64,000 nucleotides of DNA from Nitrososphaerales archaeon (GTDB lineage: Archaea > Thermoproteota > Nitrososphaeria > Nitrososphaerales > CADDZS01): contig JASHNZ010000105.1 in the NCBI GenBank assembly GCA_030041355.1, positions 124,001 through 188,000 of the forward strand, in the 5' to 3' direction. The notes below the pieces were generated by a model that saw only the letters and a list, made by a program, of their open reading frames with translations, did not search any database and was not told the DNA's origin. The stretch's first letter is position 1, and each line of letters starts with the position of its first letter. The position numbers were made by a program, and so were the translations under genes. Shown piece after piece: positions 44,156-49,957 of this stretch.

Positions 44156-44593
44156 TTGCTGGACTGGGAAGAGTTCGCTAAATTACAGCCCGAAATGGCT
44201 AGCTTTCGCGAAAAGACACTGCAATACAAGGTGATGTACCTTGCAACGATCAGAAAAGATGGGTATCCTCGGGTTCACCCATTTACACCGTTCATCGGCT
44301 CAGGTCGTCTTTTCGCTTTCATGGAATCCACTTCCCCAAAGGCGAAAGACCTTCAGAGGAATGGCAAGTATTCTATGCACTCTCTGGTTGCAGATCAAAA
44401 TGGAACCAACGGCGAATTTCAAATCGGAGGAGATGCCTTCCTCCTTTCAGATTCTGCGAGTAGAGAAGCAGCCATTGCCTCTTGCCCATACAAGCCATCG
44501 GAGCGATACGTTCTCTTTGAATTCAAGATCAACAGATGTTTCACGAATTACTACACCGATGGAACACCAAACGCGAAACACTGGAAGGAGTGA
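44156..44593 (+). CDS. PNPOx-like FMN-binding protein
   Basis: 145 residues, TTG start. Split barrel: YKVMYLATIRKDGYPRVHPFTPFI, LFAFMESTSPKAKDLQ and GDAFLL strands. A TATA-like AGATATAG near 44115 lies ~40 nt before the start. Probably a flavin or F420-dependent reductase or oxidase of unknown substrate. Confidence 0.78.
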   Translation: MLDWEEFAKLQPEMASFREKTLQYKVMYLATIRKDGYPRVHPFTPFIGSGRLFAFMESTSPKAKDLQRNGKYSMHSLVADQNGTNGEFQIGGDAFLLSDSASREAAIASCPYKPSERYVLFEFKINRCFTNYYTDGTPNAKHWKE

Positions 44594-44644: not shown

Positions 44645-45286
44645 TTAGAACATTCTAGTCGAGCGTCCTGCTTCCATCTGGTAAAGGTGATCCGCCCCTT
44701 TTGAATCTTCGCCGTGCTGTGTGGAGAAAATCACGTCAATCATTGACTTTCGAGCGTATTCACGGTATGAGTTGATGAATTCCGTTCTGTTGTCAATGTT
44801 TCCAAAGGCCTCGTCCACAAGAATTACTTTTGGGGAAGCAATCAAAGCCGTTGCGAGCGAAACTCGCTCTCTCATGCCCAGACTTAGTTTTGAAACTTTG
44901 CCATGAAAATTGATGCCTAAGCTCTTTTTTACTTCAGAAACCATGTCAGGTTGCACCTGTATCTTTCGGAGTTTCGCTCCCCACAAAAGGTGTCTGTCAA
45001 CACCGAAGTTTGGAATACAAGAATCCGGCGTAACCAAGACAACCTGCTTCTTTTCCGCGGCGAAGTCAGTTATTACTTGTGAGTTAATTTTGACATAACC
45101 TTCATCTGGTTTGTAAACGCCTGCAATCACATTCAAAAGGGAACTCTTTCCTGATCCATTCTTTCCAACCAAGCAAATGAAATTCTCGTCTTTTAATTCA
45201 GAGTCTAGCAAAAAGTCTCCTAACTTTTTCTTTGCTTTGACTTCAATCATGCGAAACGCCGGAAGAATTCCATTTAATTTCTTCAT
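44645..45286 (-). CDS. ABC transporter ATPase of the molybdate/tungstate system
   Basis: ATPase domain with Walker A VGKNGSGKSS, signature LSLGMRERVSL, Walker B VILVDEAF and a terminal His switch in STQHGE. No TOBE domain follows, unlike ModC; the separate Mop-like gene may fill that role. The longest frame starts at 45334, but the family-like sequence begins at MIEV (45250), and ATG 45286 is also possible, so the start is uncertain. Divergent from the permease; the spacer holds a 22-bp dyad. Substrate inferred from the neighbouring genes. Confidence 0.8.
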   Translation of the reverse strand: MKKLNGILPAFRMIEVKAKKKLGDFLLDSELKDENFICLVGKNGSGKSSLLNVIAGVYKPDEGYVKINSQVITDFAAEKKQVVLVTPDSCIPNFGVDRHLLWGAKLRKIQVQPDMVSEVKKSLGINFHGKVSKLSLGMRERVSLATALIASPKVILVDEAFGNIDNRTEFINSYREYARKSMIDVIFSTQHGEDSKGADHLYQMEAGRSTRMF

Positions 45287-45336
45287 ACTGCATAAAGGTT
45301 TATTTTTTTCCCTCTCCAATATTAACAGCTTCATCT

Positions 45337-45358
45337 ATGCAACCTATTTGCGTTGCAT
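45337..45358. promoter_or_regulatory. 22-bp dyad, site 1, permease promoter
   Basis: ATGCAAC-N8-GTTGCAT, perfect 7-bp arms. It is followed after 4 nt by a TATA-like TTTATTTA (45363-45370) reading toward the permease gene. The same arms and spacing recur at 48367 and 48777, and more weakly at 63612. Its place at the edge of the TATA/BRE region suits an activator or repressor of transport genes; a metal-responsive Tfx-like protein is the candidate ligand. Confidence 0.65.
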
Positions 45359-45412
45359 CCCCTTTATTTATCGTAAATTAAATCACGCGTTCGGTATTCT
45401 AGGTTAAGGAAG

Positions 45413-46189
45413 ATGAACTGGCTGAGGGTTATATCCTACATTGTATTGACTCTGTTGGTCATTCCGGTCTTAGTACTACTCTACGAGGGCCTCGGCCCGA
45501 TGAGCACTCCCTCAGGATATAGCTACGGACTATTAAGATCAATCGAGCTCACGCTCACCGGTTCTGCAATAGCGGTCTTGATCTGTATAGTACTTTACAC
45601 GCCACTAGCATATTACTTTGCGAGAAACAGCAGCAAGGTCACCCAGGCCATTTCGGATATTCCCGCCTCAATTCCTCATCCGATTATTGGAATTGCACTT
45701 CTGGTCTTGGTAAGCCCCATCAATCCCTTAGGTCAGTTCTTGATCTCCCATGGTGTCGACTTGTTCAACACTCTTTTGGGCTATGTCTCGTGCCTTGTGA
45801 TAGTTAGTGCTCCAATATACATCAAGGCAATGCAACCATTTTTTGAATCGATGAGCAGGACTCATGAGAACTATGCCGCGGGCCTAGGGGCCACGCAGCT
45901 GCGGACTTTTGTTTCCGTCGTTCTTCCAAACTCGGGAAGAGGAATCCTTTCGGCTTCTTTGATTGCCCTAAGTCGGAGCATGAGTGAATATGGCTCTATC
46001 GCCATAATCGCCTATATAATCCTGCAGAAACCATTCTATGGAGTGAGCCCTTCAGCAGTTTACATTGTCAGCGAGTATATTGCCGGAAATCTTAAAGCTG
46101 CGGTTACATCGTCGGCAGTATTGATCCTAGTTTCCATACCGATCATGATCGCTTTCAGATATGTCCAGAGGCCTCTAATCAGAACCTAG
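45413..46189 (+). CDS. ABC transporter permease, molybdate/tungstate type
   Basis: 258 residues, six TM helices. Near residue 150 the EAA-type coupling loop ENYAAGLGATQLRTFVSVVLP is present, as in ModB/WtpB/TupB permeases; ISRSMSEYGSIAIIAY in the following part is typical of the sulfate/molybdate/tungstate group. Partners are the ATPase (44645) and the binding protein (47162). Molybdate cannot be told from tungstate by sequence. Confidence 0.88.
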   Translation: MNWLRVISYIVLTLLVIPVLVLLYEGLGPMSTPSGYSYGLLRSIELTLTGSAIAVLICIVLYTPLAYYFARNSSKVTQAISDIPASIPHPIIGIALLVLVSPINPLGQFLISHGVDLFNTLLGYVSCLVIVSAPIYIKAMQPFFESMSRTHENYAAGLGATQLRTFVSVVLPNSGRGILSASLIALSRSMSEYGSIAIIAYIILQKPFYGVSPSAVYIVSEYIAGNLKAAVTSSAVLILVSIPIMIAFRYVQRPLIRT

Positions 46190-46246
46190 TAAATGACTAG
46201 CTTTCATTTTTGAGAAGCAACTACATATGTTGAGGACCAGTTTAGG

Positions 46247-46558
46247 ATGAAAAGAAGACCATTCAACGAAAAACAGTTGAAGATCTTGAAACTTCGGGCA
46301 CGAGGTTTCACCCAGCGAGAAACTGCAAAGAAGCTAGGAACAAGCAGGGCAAATGTCTCGATGGTCGAGTGGAGGTTGAGAAAGAAATTGGAAAAAGCTA
46401 GAGAAACCATCAATGCCTTCGAATCTTTGCTCCTCTCTCAGAAAATCTCGGTTCGCAAAAGCAAGACTGGGGAAGGAACCCGCGAGAAAGGACTGTCCGC
46501 TAAGGGCTCGAATAACCTTCAACTAAATGATGAAAGAAGAACAGGAGCTTCGAAATGA
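46247..46558 (+). CDS. Tfx-like HTH regulator lacking the C-terminal domain
   Basis: 103 residues. FNEKQLKILKLRARGFTQRETAKKLGTSRANVSMVEWR is the N-terminal HTH of Tfx, the archaeal regulator described for molybdenum formylmethanofuran dehydrogenase genes. A short basic tail replaces the ~90-residue metal-sensing C-domain. It could therefore bind DNA without sensing, or act with the longer paralogue at 48924. It follows the permease by 57 nt. Confidence 0.8.
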   Translation: MKRRPFNEKQLKILKLRARGFTQRETAKKLGTSRANVSMVEWRLRKKLEKARETINAFESLLLSQKISVRKSKTGEGTREKGLSAKGSNNLQLNDERRTGASK

Positions 46559-46649
46559 ACGACCTAACTGCGAAATGTCTCCGGCAGGATTTTGCAATTT
46601 AGTCCGATTGGTTTAAAGTATTGAATCACTCATTGGGACTCTGAAATTA

Positions 46650-46868
46650 TTGCCGGCAAAACTGAGTGCAAGGAATCGTTTGAAGGGAAAAATAACGAGT
46701 ATAAAGAAAGGCGGTGTCGTGGCTGGAATACAGATGAAGCTTGACGGCTCTGGCGACACGATCACCTCTGTTATAACCCTAGACGCAGTTGATGATTTGA
46801 ATCTCAAAGTTGGGGATCAAGTTTATGCGATCATAAAATCTACCGAAGTCATGATCAGCAAAGAGTAA
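46650..46868 (+). CDS. Mop-like (TOBE) molybdopterin/oxyanion-binding protein
   Basis: 72 residues, TTG start. LSARNRLKGKITSIKKGGVVAGIQ, then VITLDAVDDLNLKVGDQVYAIIKSTEVMI, is the single Mop/TOBE domain that binds molybdate or tungstate in clostridial Mop and in ModE. It may store oxyanion or serve as the missing regulatory domain of the ATPase. A TATA-like GGTTTAAAG lies ~35 nt upstream with a TTGCAA half-site before it. Confidence 0.88.
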   Translation: MPAKLSARNRLKGKITSIKKGGVVAGIQMKLDGSGDTITSVITLDAVDDLNLKVGDQVYAIIKSTEVMISKE

Positions 46869-46873
46869 TCATT

Positions 46874-47092
46874 CTATACGGCAATTAGGCAGGGAAATAC
46901 CTGACCGAAGTTTTTGAAGTCGGGCCTGCCTTTCCCTAGAACTTTAACTTCTTGATCCAGGCAACCGCTAGAACAATAGTGCATCTTACAACGGGTATCT
47001 TCCAGCAAAACTGCTTCCACGCTCAATAACTCGGAGTTACAGAATCCACAAATGAAATAGTTCTCTCCACATCTGGGACAGCGAGCGGACAA
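46874..47092 (-). CDS. Small Cys-rich zinc-binding protein
   Basis: 72 residues, TTG start. It has CPRCGENYFICGFC at the N-terminus and HYCSSGCLDQEV in the second half, with eight Cys likely to hold two zinc ions. Function not recognised. It is convergent with the Mop-like gene, 5 nt apart, and upstream of the binding-protein gene in the opposite sense. Confidence 0.55.
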   Translation of the reverse strand: MSARCPRCGENYFICGFCNSELLSVEAVLLEDTRCKMHYCSSGCLDQEVKVLGKGRPDFKNFGQVFPCLIAV

Positions 47093-47161
47093 AATCGCAA
47101 CACTTTGCTTTATTGGGAAACAAAGAGAGGATGGAGAGAGCCGGAAACTCTCCCCCAGGTA

Positions 47162-48310
47162 CTACGAGAGTGCGCCGTCATCTACCAATGTTCCGCTACT
47201 GAGCAGTGCCGCGATCGGCGTTGGCACTGTATAGCCTGTATCGTTGTAGAGCTGTGCTGGAGTGAAATCCAGCAGCTGGAAGGGTTTCAGAAGTGTCGCA
47301 TAGTTTTCGACGACGAAGACAACGAAATTCACTGAGGCAGTTGGGTCTGTGCTATCTTTCGGCACTGTGATCCAGATCCTTATAGCCGAAGCGGTTTCTA
47401 TATCCGTTGGTGTGACGGTGTATGAAGCTTGGCCGTACCATGTATTGTCAGCGACTAATCCCAGATTAACCGGGTTGGCGAGTTGTATGAGATCCAGTCC
47501 CCCTGATGTAATAGCAGATTTGTAGTAAAAGAGAAAATTGATTGCTCCTGTCTCAAGTGCGGGGACAAGTGCTGCGGCGCTCGCACCTGTAACATTGGCG
47601 TCGTTTGTGAGCATCCTGTTCGCGAAGTACTGTTCATTCGCCACGCCGCTGTCGTAAGCGATACCTGCTAACTCCAACGTCAGCCAACCTCGGTAGCCAG
47701 CAGGGTCTGTAACTGGGTCTGCGATTCCGACTTTGACGGCGCCTGAAGTTAGGTTGTTGAAGAAGTCATACCAAGCCGAAGTCGAGTTTGAGGCACTTGC
47801 CGTGTTATACGCTGTCAAAACTGCTTTCGCCGCAGTCGTTGTTGTCGATGTCGAAGTGTACGCAATGCCGAACTGGTCACCGGCGAGGGCTATTGCCCAG
47901 CCGGGGTACTCGGATCCCAAGCTCGAATTCTCGACCGAGGAGTGAGAAATCGAAAGGAATATGCTAACAGGATCCCCTGCTGCAATGAGCGCAGCATCAG
48001 CTCCCGATCCCGCTTCCTCGGCCGTGACGACAGAAATATTCGTCGAAGCGTGGAAGGCTGATTCGAGGACCGAAGACTCGTTCACCTGTGAATCTGCGGA
48101 GTATAGCAAAAGTGGATACGCGGATGGGACAGAGGTCGTTGTTGTAGTCGTGGCGGAGGTAGCAGTGCTGGTCTTTATGAGAGCAACATAACCCAGGCTC
48201 GCGGCTAGGATTATTACCACTACTACAAGAGCTACGACGATAGTTGCTATACCGCTCGACTTGCCAAATGAACTGCGGGATCCTCCAAGAAGTTTAACCA
48301 TGTGATTCAT
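47162..48310 (-). CDS. Molybdate/tungstate-binding protein (WtpA/ModA-like)
   Basis: 382 residues. N-terminal TM anchor (~22-45) and a Thr-rich linker (~48-62) are followed by a type II periplasmic-binding fold. The VGIADPVTDPAGYRGW block is the strongest signature, matching the anion-pocket loop of WtpA/ModA proteins. It captures oxyanion outside the membrane for the permease at 45413. The TATA box is at ~48355-48362 with the second dyad just upstream. Confidence 0.85.
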   Translation of the reverse strand: MNHMVKLLGGSRSSFGKSSGIATIVVALVVVVIILAASLGYVALIKTSTATSATTTTTTSVPSAYPLLLYSADSQVNESSVLESAFHASTNISVVTAEEAGSGADAALIAAGDPVSIFLSISHSSVENSSLGSEYPGWAIALAGDQFGIAYTSTSTTTTAAKAVLTAYNTASASNSTSAWYDFFNNLTSGAVKVGIADPVTDPAGYRGWLTLELAGIAYDSGVANEQYFANRMLTNDANVTGASAAALVPALETGAINFLFYYKSAITSGGLDLIQLANPVNLGLVADNTWYGQASYTVTPTDIETASAIRIWITVPKDSTDPTASVNFVVFVVENYATLLKPFQLLDFTPAQLYNDTGYTVPTPIAALLSSGTLVDDGALS

Positions 48311-48366
48311 GTTTCTAAAAGAACCTCTGAGTTATGTGTGCCGACGAAGCGCCTGATTTAAAGAAG

Positions 48367-48388
48367 ATGCAATGCGAATATATTGCAC
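48367..48388. promoter_or_regulatory. 22-bp dyad, site 2, binding-protein promoter
   Basis: ATGCAA-N10-TTGCAC, only the last base differing from site 1. On the minus strand it is separated by ~4 nt from the TATA-like GATTTAAA (48355-48362) of the binding-protein gene. Same spacing and placement as site 1. Confidence 0.6.
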
Positions 48389-48434
48389 TCAGGAGAATAA
48401 ACAGGCTAATGGCCGAAACATTACAAGTACAAAA

Positions 48435-48698
48435 CTATTCTTGAACTCCTGAGTCAATACCGATTTCCTCAATCGATGTAACTTTCTCAATCCAGTCACA
48501 CTCTATTCCCTGCCGCAGATGAAATTGTTCCACTGAAGCTCTGTCGGGAGCGTCAAGAAGACAGTAGCACTTGTTCTCGTCTTCGGCGTTGACTATCTTA
48601 AGTAAAATTACCTCGCAGGCTTTCTCCGAATTGGCACCTATCTTCAAAAGAGATCCGCTGTTTAACGGGTGCTTATGCGTGTCTAAGTAAAATGGCAT
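48435..48698 (-). CDS. DUF4242-family small protein (nickel-binding-like)
   Basis: 87 residues. MPFYLDTHKHP, then KCYCLLDAPDRASVEQFH and a closing CDWIEKV, is the DUF4242 ferredoxin-like pattern. The family is sometimes called nickel-binding but is functionally undefined. Its promoter carries a third copy of the dyad, which places the gene in the putative metal regulon. A paralogue at 54727 lacks the dyad. Confidence 0.8.
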   Translation of the reverse strand: MPFYLDTHKHPLNSGSLLKIGANSEKACEVILLKIVNAEDENKCYCLLDAPDRASVEQFHLRQGIECDWIEKVTSIEEIGIDSGVQE

Positions 48699-48776
48699 AG
48701 GATGATCAGACTAATTATTGGATTGCCGATTTTTTAGAATCATGATCGAACAAAATGGGAGAATCATATAAGAGAG

Positions 48777-48798
48777 ATGCAATACTTCCTCGTTGCCA
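48777..48798. promoter_or_regulatory. 22-bp dyad, site 3, DUF4242 promoter
   Basis: ATGCAA-N10-TTGCCA. The left arm is identical to sites 1 and 2, and four of six bases match on the right. A TATA-like TCATATAA (48764-48771, minus-strand gene) lies 5 nt away, as at the other two sites. The interval 48799-48923 contains no gene. Confidence 0.5.
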
Positions 48799-48923: not shown

Positions 48924-49424
48924 TTACAGAAGCGAGAGTTTGCCTCTTTCGTTGAATGAAAAAACGATCTTCGCTTTAGTCCTCCCATCAGCGAACCGGC
49001 GTCTTCTCAGCTTCTTGACCATCCTCAGAATATCCACCATATTAGACTGCAAGTGTATGTGAAATCGATCCGCTTCCCCTAAAACTATCATCGGAATCTT
49101 TTGCAGACGAGTTCCTTTTTCGATCGTAACTATATGCTGAGTTTGTGCTCTGGCAAGTTCGAACACTTTCAAGGTTTGCGTAGCTTTGTTGAGCTGCCTT
49201 CTTGCTCTTGCCTCAATCATGGAAACGCTACTTCGCGACATGTGCGTTTGCGCGGCTATTTCGCGCTGGAGATATCCCCTATCGCGCAAGCAGAGTATCA
49301 GAAACTGTTTCTTTGTCAGGAAGCCCAGACTTGACTGCGGATACTTGAATTCGGCGAGTTCTCCAAACTTGCGGCCGGTACTATCGCTGCTCAGTTCGCT
49401 TCTGATAACGCTTTTCGAAACCAT
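48924..49424 (-). CDS. Tfx-like regulator with full C-terminal domain
   Basis: 166 residues. HTH: FLTKKQFLILCLRDRGYLQ, then REIAAQTHMSRSSVSMIEA, at ~33-70. The second half (IVTIEKGTRLQKIPMIVLG onward) corresponds to the proposed metal- or cofactor-sensing domain of Tfx proteins. Being longer than the paralogue at 46247, it is the better candidate for a molybdate/tungstate sensor that binds the 22-bp dyads. The C-terminus is highly basic. Confidence 0.8.
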   Translation of the reverse strand: MVSKSVIRSELSSDSTGRKFGELAEFKYPQSSLGFLTKKQFLILCLRDRGYLQREIAAQTHMSRSSVSMIEARARRQLNKATQTLKVFELARAQTQHIVTIEKGTRLQKIPMIVLGEADRFHIHLQSNMVDILRMVKKLRRRRFADGRTKAKIVFSFNERGKLSLL

Positions 49425-49480: not shown

Positions 49481-49957
49481 CTAGGAACGCTTACCGTACT
49501 CCCACACTGTATAGAAGTCGGGCACAATTTCGATGACCGTCTCCGATCCTGGTTTTGCGACGGATAGCAATTTGCCATAGGCATTGTCGAGATTTCCAAG
49601 ATATTTAATGACGATCTTCTTAGCGATCTCGAGGGTACGAAAAGGGTCATTCAGTATACTCGCGGTTGCCTTTCCTTTGACCCCCTTGTAGGGCTGACTG
49701 TCTGTATCTATTGAGAAATAAACTCTGTTCTTTGAAATCATGTTGCGCGCTTTGCGGCTGGTCTTGCTAGTCCAAATGTAGATCACATTGTCCTGAAAGT
49801 AGTACCAAACCGGGTGGATCGCAGGTTCTCCCTTTTGATCTACTGTTGCCAGACGAAGTAGTGTCTGGCTACCGGTGAGAAATTCCTCTATCTCGGTTTG
49901 ATTCATGCCGGGCACCCCTTGCATCGCATCGTAAATTTTCACAGGTTGAGCTCTCAT
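49481..49957 (-). CDS. PNPOx/F420-fold flavin protein
   Basis: 158 residues. MNQTEIEEFLTGSQTLLRLATVDQ, then PAIHPVWYYFQDNVIYIWTSKTSRKARNM, is the Rv1155-type split barrel, which can bind F420 or FMN. ATG at 49957 or the internal Met of MNQTE (49906) could start it. Role unknown. Confidence 0.8.
   Translation of the reverse strand: MRAQPVKIYDAMQGVPGMNQTEIEEFLTGSQTLLRLATVDQKGEPAIHPVWYYFQDNVIYIWTSKTSRKARNMISKNRVYFSIDTDSQPYKGVKGKATASILNDPFRTLEIAKKIVIKYLGNLDNAYGKLLSVAKPGSETVIEIVPDFYTVWEYGKRS

Follow-up and report, generated by a model that had tools for sequence, protein, structure and literature searches.

Three similar inverted repeats lie beside the promoters of a metal transport locus in an uncultured Nitrososphaerales archaeon, and the question they raise is whether they constitute an operator and, if so, for which regulator. 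The locus is contained in a window of 64,000 nucleotides (nt), positions 124,001 to 188,000 of contig JASHNZ010000105.1 (assembly GCA_030041355.1), from a genome of 2.74 Mb that is labelled G000 in our genome comparisons; those relatives of the locus that carry names are Nitrososphaerales metagenome-assembled genomes. An initial annotation, made from the sequence alone, had described three sites of the form ATGCAA-N10-TTGCAT at positions 45337, 48367 and 48777 of the window, and had proposed that they form a metal operator rather than chance repeats. Sequence comparison favours a specific form of this proposal, which we consider quite likely as a whole: the sites would be Tfx1-type operators, named after a Tfx-family protein encoded in the locus, placed 4 nt upstream of the TATA boxes of genes for a WtpABC/Mod-type importer in one family of Nitrososphaerales.

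The three sites were found at these positions, but their arms are less uniform than had been described. The quoted arms are exact at 45337 alone, whereas the site at 48367 (ATGCAATGCGAATATATTGCAC) has one mismatch and that at 48777 (ATGCAATACTTCCTCGTTGCCA) has two. Common to all three is GCAA-N10-TTGC followed, after 6 bases, by a predicted TATA box (YTTAWW, called by consensus). The distance to the TATA box, given earlier as 4-5 nt, is constant: on the promoter side, the TATA 7-mer starts exactly 4 nt past the 22-mer at every site. Box 1 (ATGCAACCTATTTGCGTTGCAT; 45337..45358, plus strand), the exact dyad, precedes the TATA box TTTATTT of the permease gene (45363..45369, plus strand). Box 2, which reads GTGCAATATATTCGCATTGCAT in promoter orientation (48367..48388, minus strand), precedes TTTAAAT of the binding-protein gene (48356..48362, minus strand). 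Box 3, TGGCAACGAGGAAGTATTGCAT in promoter orientation (48777..48798, minus strand), is an exact composite in the correct phase and precedes CTTATAT of the DUF4242/SCO4226-like gene (48766..48772, minus strand). An RNA element was ruled out, because the dyads lie upstream of the TATA boxes and should not be transcribed.

The literal motif ATGCAA-N10-TTGCAT is not enriched in the window, where 5 matches with up to two mismatches compare with 4.05 ± 2.11 in shuffled sequence, and it was superseded by the combination of GCAA-N10-TTGC with a phased TATA box. A pattern search for this composite, GCAA-N10-TTGC-N6-YTTAWW, returned four occurrences in the whole genome, three of them the sites of the window and the fourth antisense to a GTPase open reading frame (ORF). 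About 0.23 composites per genome would be expected by chance, given the 91 dyads present, a figure that is post hoc because the composite was derived from these same sites. When one mismatch was allowed, 19 matches gave no additional convincing promoter, and a genome-wide regulon in this genome was dropped from consideration. Likewise, the genome-wide enrichment at molybdenum and tungsten genes that had been envisaged was not seen. As the perfect composite is restricted to the transport locus in this genome, the pattern counts indicate a local operator there, and relatives have somewhat more sites.

Orthologous promoters provide an independent test of the composite. A search of 300 genomes from the order identified permease orthologues in 25. 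Within the window's own family (f1), the dyad is present at every permease and binding-protein promoter examined, that is, at five permease promoters (G000, G003, G004, G052 and G065) and seven binding-protein promoters (the same five genomes with G012 and G027). Five genomes, this one included, have both genes, and in these the composite is present at 5/5 permease and 5/5 binding-protein promoters; in 20,000 trials of dinucleotide shuffling of the ten promoters, the composite was never obtained and the bare dyad arose in 0.3%. In an alignment anchored on the site, the arms GCAAC/GTTGC showed 100% pairwise identity among the five permease promoters and 94% among the seven binding-protein promoters, as compared with 24-41% for the flanks, 39-45% for the centre and 71-83% for the TATA box. 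Because this alignment was anchored on the motif, unanchored permease upstream regions were also aligned with MAFFT, which gave GCAAC, CGTTGC and TTATT as invariant blocks. The gap to the TATA box is 4 nt throughout the orthologous promoters. The MAFFT alignment also contains a second short conserved block (TTAGGT-like), at about 45398-45412 of the window and just 5' of the permease ATG in most relatives.

Across nine f1 genomes, the composite matched 17 times and the reversed-pattern control 0 times, and none of 22 genomes from the order's other families contained the composite. Among the 30 oriented dyads in loci retrieved solely by protein homology, 10 have the TATA motif at offset 6, and no other offset accounts for more than 2; for dyads fetched by the dyad alone, it stands at offset 6 in 6 cases and elsewhere in 2. 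All of the family genomes are draft assemblies, and absences from them are provisional. Phylogenetic footprinting and the fixed TATA spacing thus give strong backing to the initial annotation in its choice of an operator over chance repeats, and the comparison indicates that the dyad is almost certainly a real operator.

Further sites in the same phase were found in relatives, at a second wtpC-like gene and a methyltransferase gene in G004 and, on one contig of G065, at a gene for a different binding protein (SBP_bac_6 type) and a Tfx fusion gene. Weaker boxes in this phase accompany AbrB/PhoU-like genes in G065 and G004 and a major facilitator superfamily transporter gene in G002. These extra sites suggest a small regulon in some relatives. 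The boxes at the AbrB/PhoU-domain genes (L103:1249, G065:C127; L037:14410, G004:C157) are Tfx-like, hinting at a link between tungsten/molybdenum and phosphate-type control.

With regard to the protein that may bind the dyad, the two Tfx-like regulators previously noticed in the locus are both there, and no other Tfx gene was found in the genome. Tfx1 (46247..46558, plus strand; 103 amino acids), encoded directly downstream of the permease gene, comprises a Tfx-family helix-turn-helix (HTH) and stem helix without the TFX_C domain; Tfx2 (48924..49424, minus strand) is a full-length family protein with TFX_C (PF14601, 5.8e-12). The TIGR00721 cut-off of 60.25 bits is passed by Tfx1 (63.0 bits) and Tfx2 (72.1 bits). 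From the evidence below, it is very probable that a Tfx protein binds the dyad. Both regulators had been implicated at first; the evidence favours Tfx1 alone, which is probably the binder in preference to Tfx2. Linkage and similarity make Tfx1 the likely binder, because its gene directly follows that of the permease, because dyads lie upstream of Tfx genes in relatives without the permease, and because the core GCAAC-N8-GTTGC, 18 bp in all, has the half-site geometry of the operator of EnfR, another Tfx-family protein. The order permease-tfx1 recurs in all five genomes whose permease promoters were compared. In G002 and G001, which have a Tfx gene and no permease match, a dyad precedes the Tfx HTH match by about 39 and 50 nt, respectively, the one in G001 being imperfect; in G012, a dyad is flanked on one side by a Tfx gene and on the other by the binding-protein gene. 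The Tfx1 proteins of G000, G004 and G052 end before TFX_C, which is kept in the copies of G065 and, apparently, G003. The idea that the presence of the oxyanion-binding protein Mop tracks the loss of TFX_C was dropped, because G065 combines Mop with a full-length Tfx. In addition, a Tfx2-type protein was observed that carries, as an N-terminal fusion, a domain with no match in Pfam. A free-standing copy of this domain occurs as well, and each of the two genes is preceded by an in-phase box (L118:681-1669, G065:C20; L102:1260-1754, G065:C97).

EnfR (TON_1525) of Thermococcus onnurineus acts as a repressor at the codh operator, covering a TATA-like region, and its minimal site, AATCTTTTTGTTTACATT, is 18 bp long with symmetric 5-N8-5 arms (PMC10570040). 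According to the authors of that study, no target sequence of a Tfx protein had been described earlier (PMC10570040), and EnfR's was the only mapped Tfx-family operator in the literature searched. Tfx1 matches EnfR (8hno) over the HTH with an E-value of 1.8e-14 in phmmer, and 8hno is also the best match in the PDB to its predicted structure (1.1 Å over 57 columns). Residues from about 11 to 60 of the model have a block-mean predicted local distance difference test (pLDDT) score of at least 90, and the model contains an EnfR-like HTH and stem helix. The core of the dyad agrees with the EnfR minimal site in both length and arm spacing. The arms themselves differ, being AATnT in EnfR and GCAAC here; among the DNA-contact residues of EnfR, Arg35 and Arg44 are kept in Tfx1 and Arg43 is replaced by Trp, consistent with a different base preference. 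Tfx1 also lacks the C-terminal note-head domain, and whereas EnfR covers the TATA-like region, the box here stops short of it. If the Tfx1 assignment is true, this would be a second independent operator for a little-studied archaeal regulator, defined by cross-genome comparison, with another sequence, another promoter position and plausibly the opposite sign.

In the mechanism that we favour, a Tfx1 dimer would most likely occupy the operator core GCAAC(G)-N6/8-(C)GTTGC (18 bp), which is fixed 4 nt upstream of the TATA boxes of importer genes, and each GCAAC half-site may be contacted by the HTH/stem helix of Tfx1. Bound there, Tfx1 may help TFB and TBP to assemble on promoters without a purine-rich B recognition element (BRE), so that expression of the importer would be raised when tungsten or molybdenum is short. 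As tfx1 follows the permease gene, it is probably under the same operator, which would create a feedback loop. Of 44 positions in the 4-nt gaps, 3 are purines. In archaea, repressors usually sit on the TATA box or downstream of it, and activators usually lie upstream of the BRE/TATA region and bring in TBP or TFB (PMC5937170). TFB-RF1 of Pyrococcus furiosus acts at weak-BRE promoters from a palindrome at a conserved distance upstream (PMC5937170). The promoters here likewise combine a good TATA box and a weak BRE with a palindrome placed upstream at an invariant distance, the five clean promoters of the window being too few to derive a BRE consensus for the lineage. The targets of TFB-RF1 include its own operon and an ABC transporter, and it is conserved across a lineage, but its palindrome is a different one of 13 nt, TCTGAANTTCAGA (PMC5937170). 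Activation is therefore somewhat favoured over repression, on account of the upstream position, the constant 4-nt gap and the pyrimidine-rich gap without a purine-rich BRE, an arrangement that resembles that of TFB-RF1.

The signal is probably the availability of tungsten or molybdenum, a suggestion based on the type of transporter and on Methanothermobacter, where transcription of tfx is reported in a review to be repressed by tungstate (PMC3087415). The same review reports, citing Hochheimer 1999, that the Methanothermobacter Tfx binds downstream of the fmdECB promoter (PMC3087415). A Tfx protein is thus tied to molybdenum/tungsten-related genes there too, but it binds downstream of a promoter and beside a molybdoenzyme operon, not a transporter. 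This review was all that a literature search for a published Tfx/tungstate operator turned up. The label of a metal operator seems reasonable, because the genes concerned are WtpA-, WtpB- and ModC-like and are accompanied by a Mop protein.

A sister family of Nitrososphaerales (f10) has the same transporter genes with a divergent gene for a protein of ModE-HTH and Mop domains. Its promoters carry the box GTTATGCA-N6-TGCATAAC a few bases downstream of the TATA box, with a GAAA-type sequence before the TATA box in several cases. A ModE HTH was found in 7/7 f10 genomes tested and in 0/9 f1 genomes at an E-value of 0.001, and no ModE-type box was found at the f1 transporter promoters, the f10 box being unlike the f1 dyads in both sequence and position. 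ModE was thus ruled out as the binder of the dyad, there being no HTH match in f1. The two families thus differ in regulator, in box and in where the box lies. Judging from gene and box, ModE controls the same type of transporter in f10. This would be a clear case of regulator exchange, in which the same importer appears under ModE, with a box downstream of the TATA box, in one family, and under a Tfx-type box upstream of it in the other. Conservation, phase, linkage to Tfx genes and the absence of a ModE HTH match can be read directly from the genomes compared. A more elaborate version, in which a Tfx without the C-terminal domain has replaced ModE in one Nitrososphaerales family as a promoter-phased activator recruiting TFB to BRE-poor importer promoters, and metal sensing is left to another molecule, for instance the Mop protein encoded nearby, is speculative and, in our view, rather unlikely. 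The ModE-type boxes of f10, opposite the divergent ModE-HTH and Mop gene, are located at L046:10053, L048:7071, L051:10209, L053:10291, L035:2201 and other positions.

Several observations weigh against control of the importer by Tfx1 as an activator. Box 3 is weaker than boxes 1 and 2, because it is backed by one genome alone, with no orthologous promoter to compare. All three subunits score below the WtpABC/ModABC equivalog cut-offs, although WtpA/B/C are still the best profiles. Tfx genes and boxes occur together through linkage, a pattern that a different regulator could also explain. A BRE would start at the point where the 22-mer stops, so the box could serve repression by keeping TFB away, and the only family member for which a mapped site was found, EnfR, acts as a repressor (PMC10570040). 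The most probable alternative keeps the same Tfx box and reverses the sign: metal-bound Tfx beside the TATA box would hinder TFB when tungstate or molybdate is plentiful. The abutting of box and BRE position, the precedent of EnfR and the f10 ModE-type box, just downstream of the TATA box in a repressor position, would suit such a role. However, a steric blocker would not need the box to end 4 nt before the TATA box in every promoter, and the BRE position is pyrimidine-rich, as for activator-dependent promoters. We regard repression by Tfx as possible but unlikely.

Somewhat less probable still is physiological binding by Tfx2, or by Tfx1 and Tfx2 as a pair. Tfx2 has a complete TFX_C domain, its gene adjoins box 3, and an in-phase box lies upstream of a Tfx2-type gene in G065, but G052 keeps both boxes with the tfx1 type alone, and recognition-helix residues differ between the two types (SRAN vs SRSS/SRAS). 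It is improbable, too, that the operator is real and bound by a non-Tfx regulator encoded elsewhere. In line with this, the Tfx genes of this genome both lack a dyad of their own, and G027 has a boxed binding-protein gene and no Tfx match in a genome that is 70% complete; these two points also count against binding by Tfx1. The recurrent permease-tfx1 linkage, the presence of dyads beside Tfx genes in relatives that lack the permease, the 18-bp geometry in common with EnfR and the absence of a ModE HTH in f1 argue for Tfx1 instead. Chance inverted repeats in promoters, to which the lack of enrichment of the bare motif might point, are refuted by the orthologous promoters, together with the composite counts and controls, and their probability is negligible. 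Given the fixed box-to-TATA geometry, a direct biochemical test would be simple.

The transporter was termed Wtp/Mod-like because the WtpA, WtpB and WtpC profiles are the best matches, all below cut-off. The WtpB-like ATP-binding cassette (ABC) permease (45413..46189, plus strand) matches NF040839 at 4.4e-35, and the WtpA-like substrate-binding protein (47162..48310, minus strand; PF13531) matches NF003196 at 3.1e-24. Divergent from the permease gene is that for a WtpC/ModC-like ABC ATPase (44645..45334, minus strand; NF040840, 1.4e-27), the real start of which may be further in. The Mop protein (molbindin type, stand-alone, 72 amino acids; 46650..46868, plus strand) exceeds the TIGR00638 cut-off of 55 with 78.1 bits, and the DUF4242/SCO4226-like protein (87 amino acids; 48435..48698, minus strand) scores 29.3 bits with PF14026 against a cut-off of 28.5. 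Two genes for PPOX-class (F420-type) oxidoreductases stand on either side of the transport locus (44156-44593 and 49481-49957 of the window). A cysteine-rich ORF of 72 amino acids without a family match lies at 46874-47092 on the minus strand, and a similar ORF adjoins the locus in G052 (L031:585-722).

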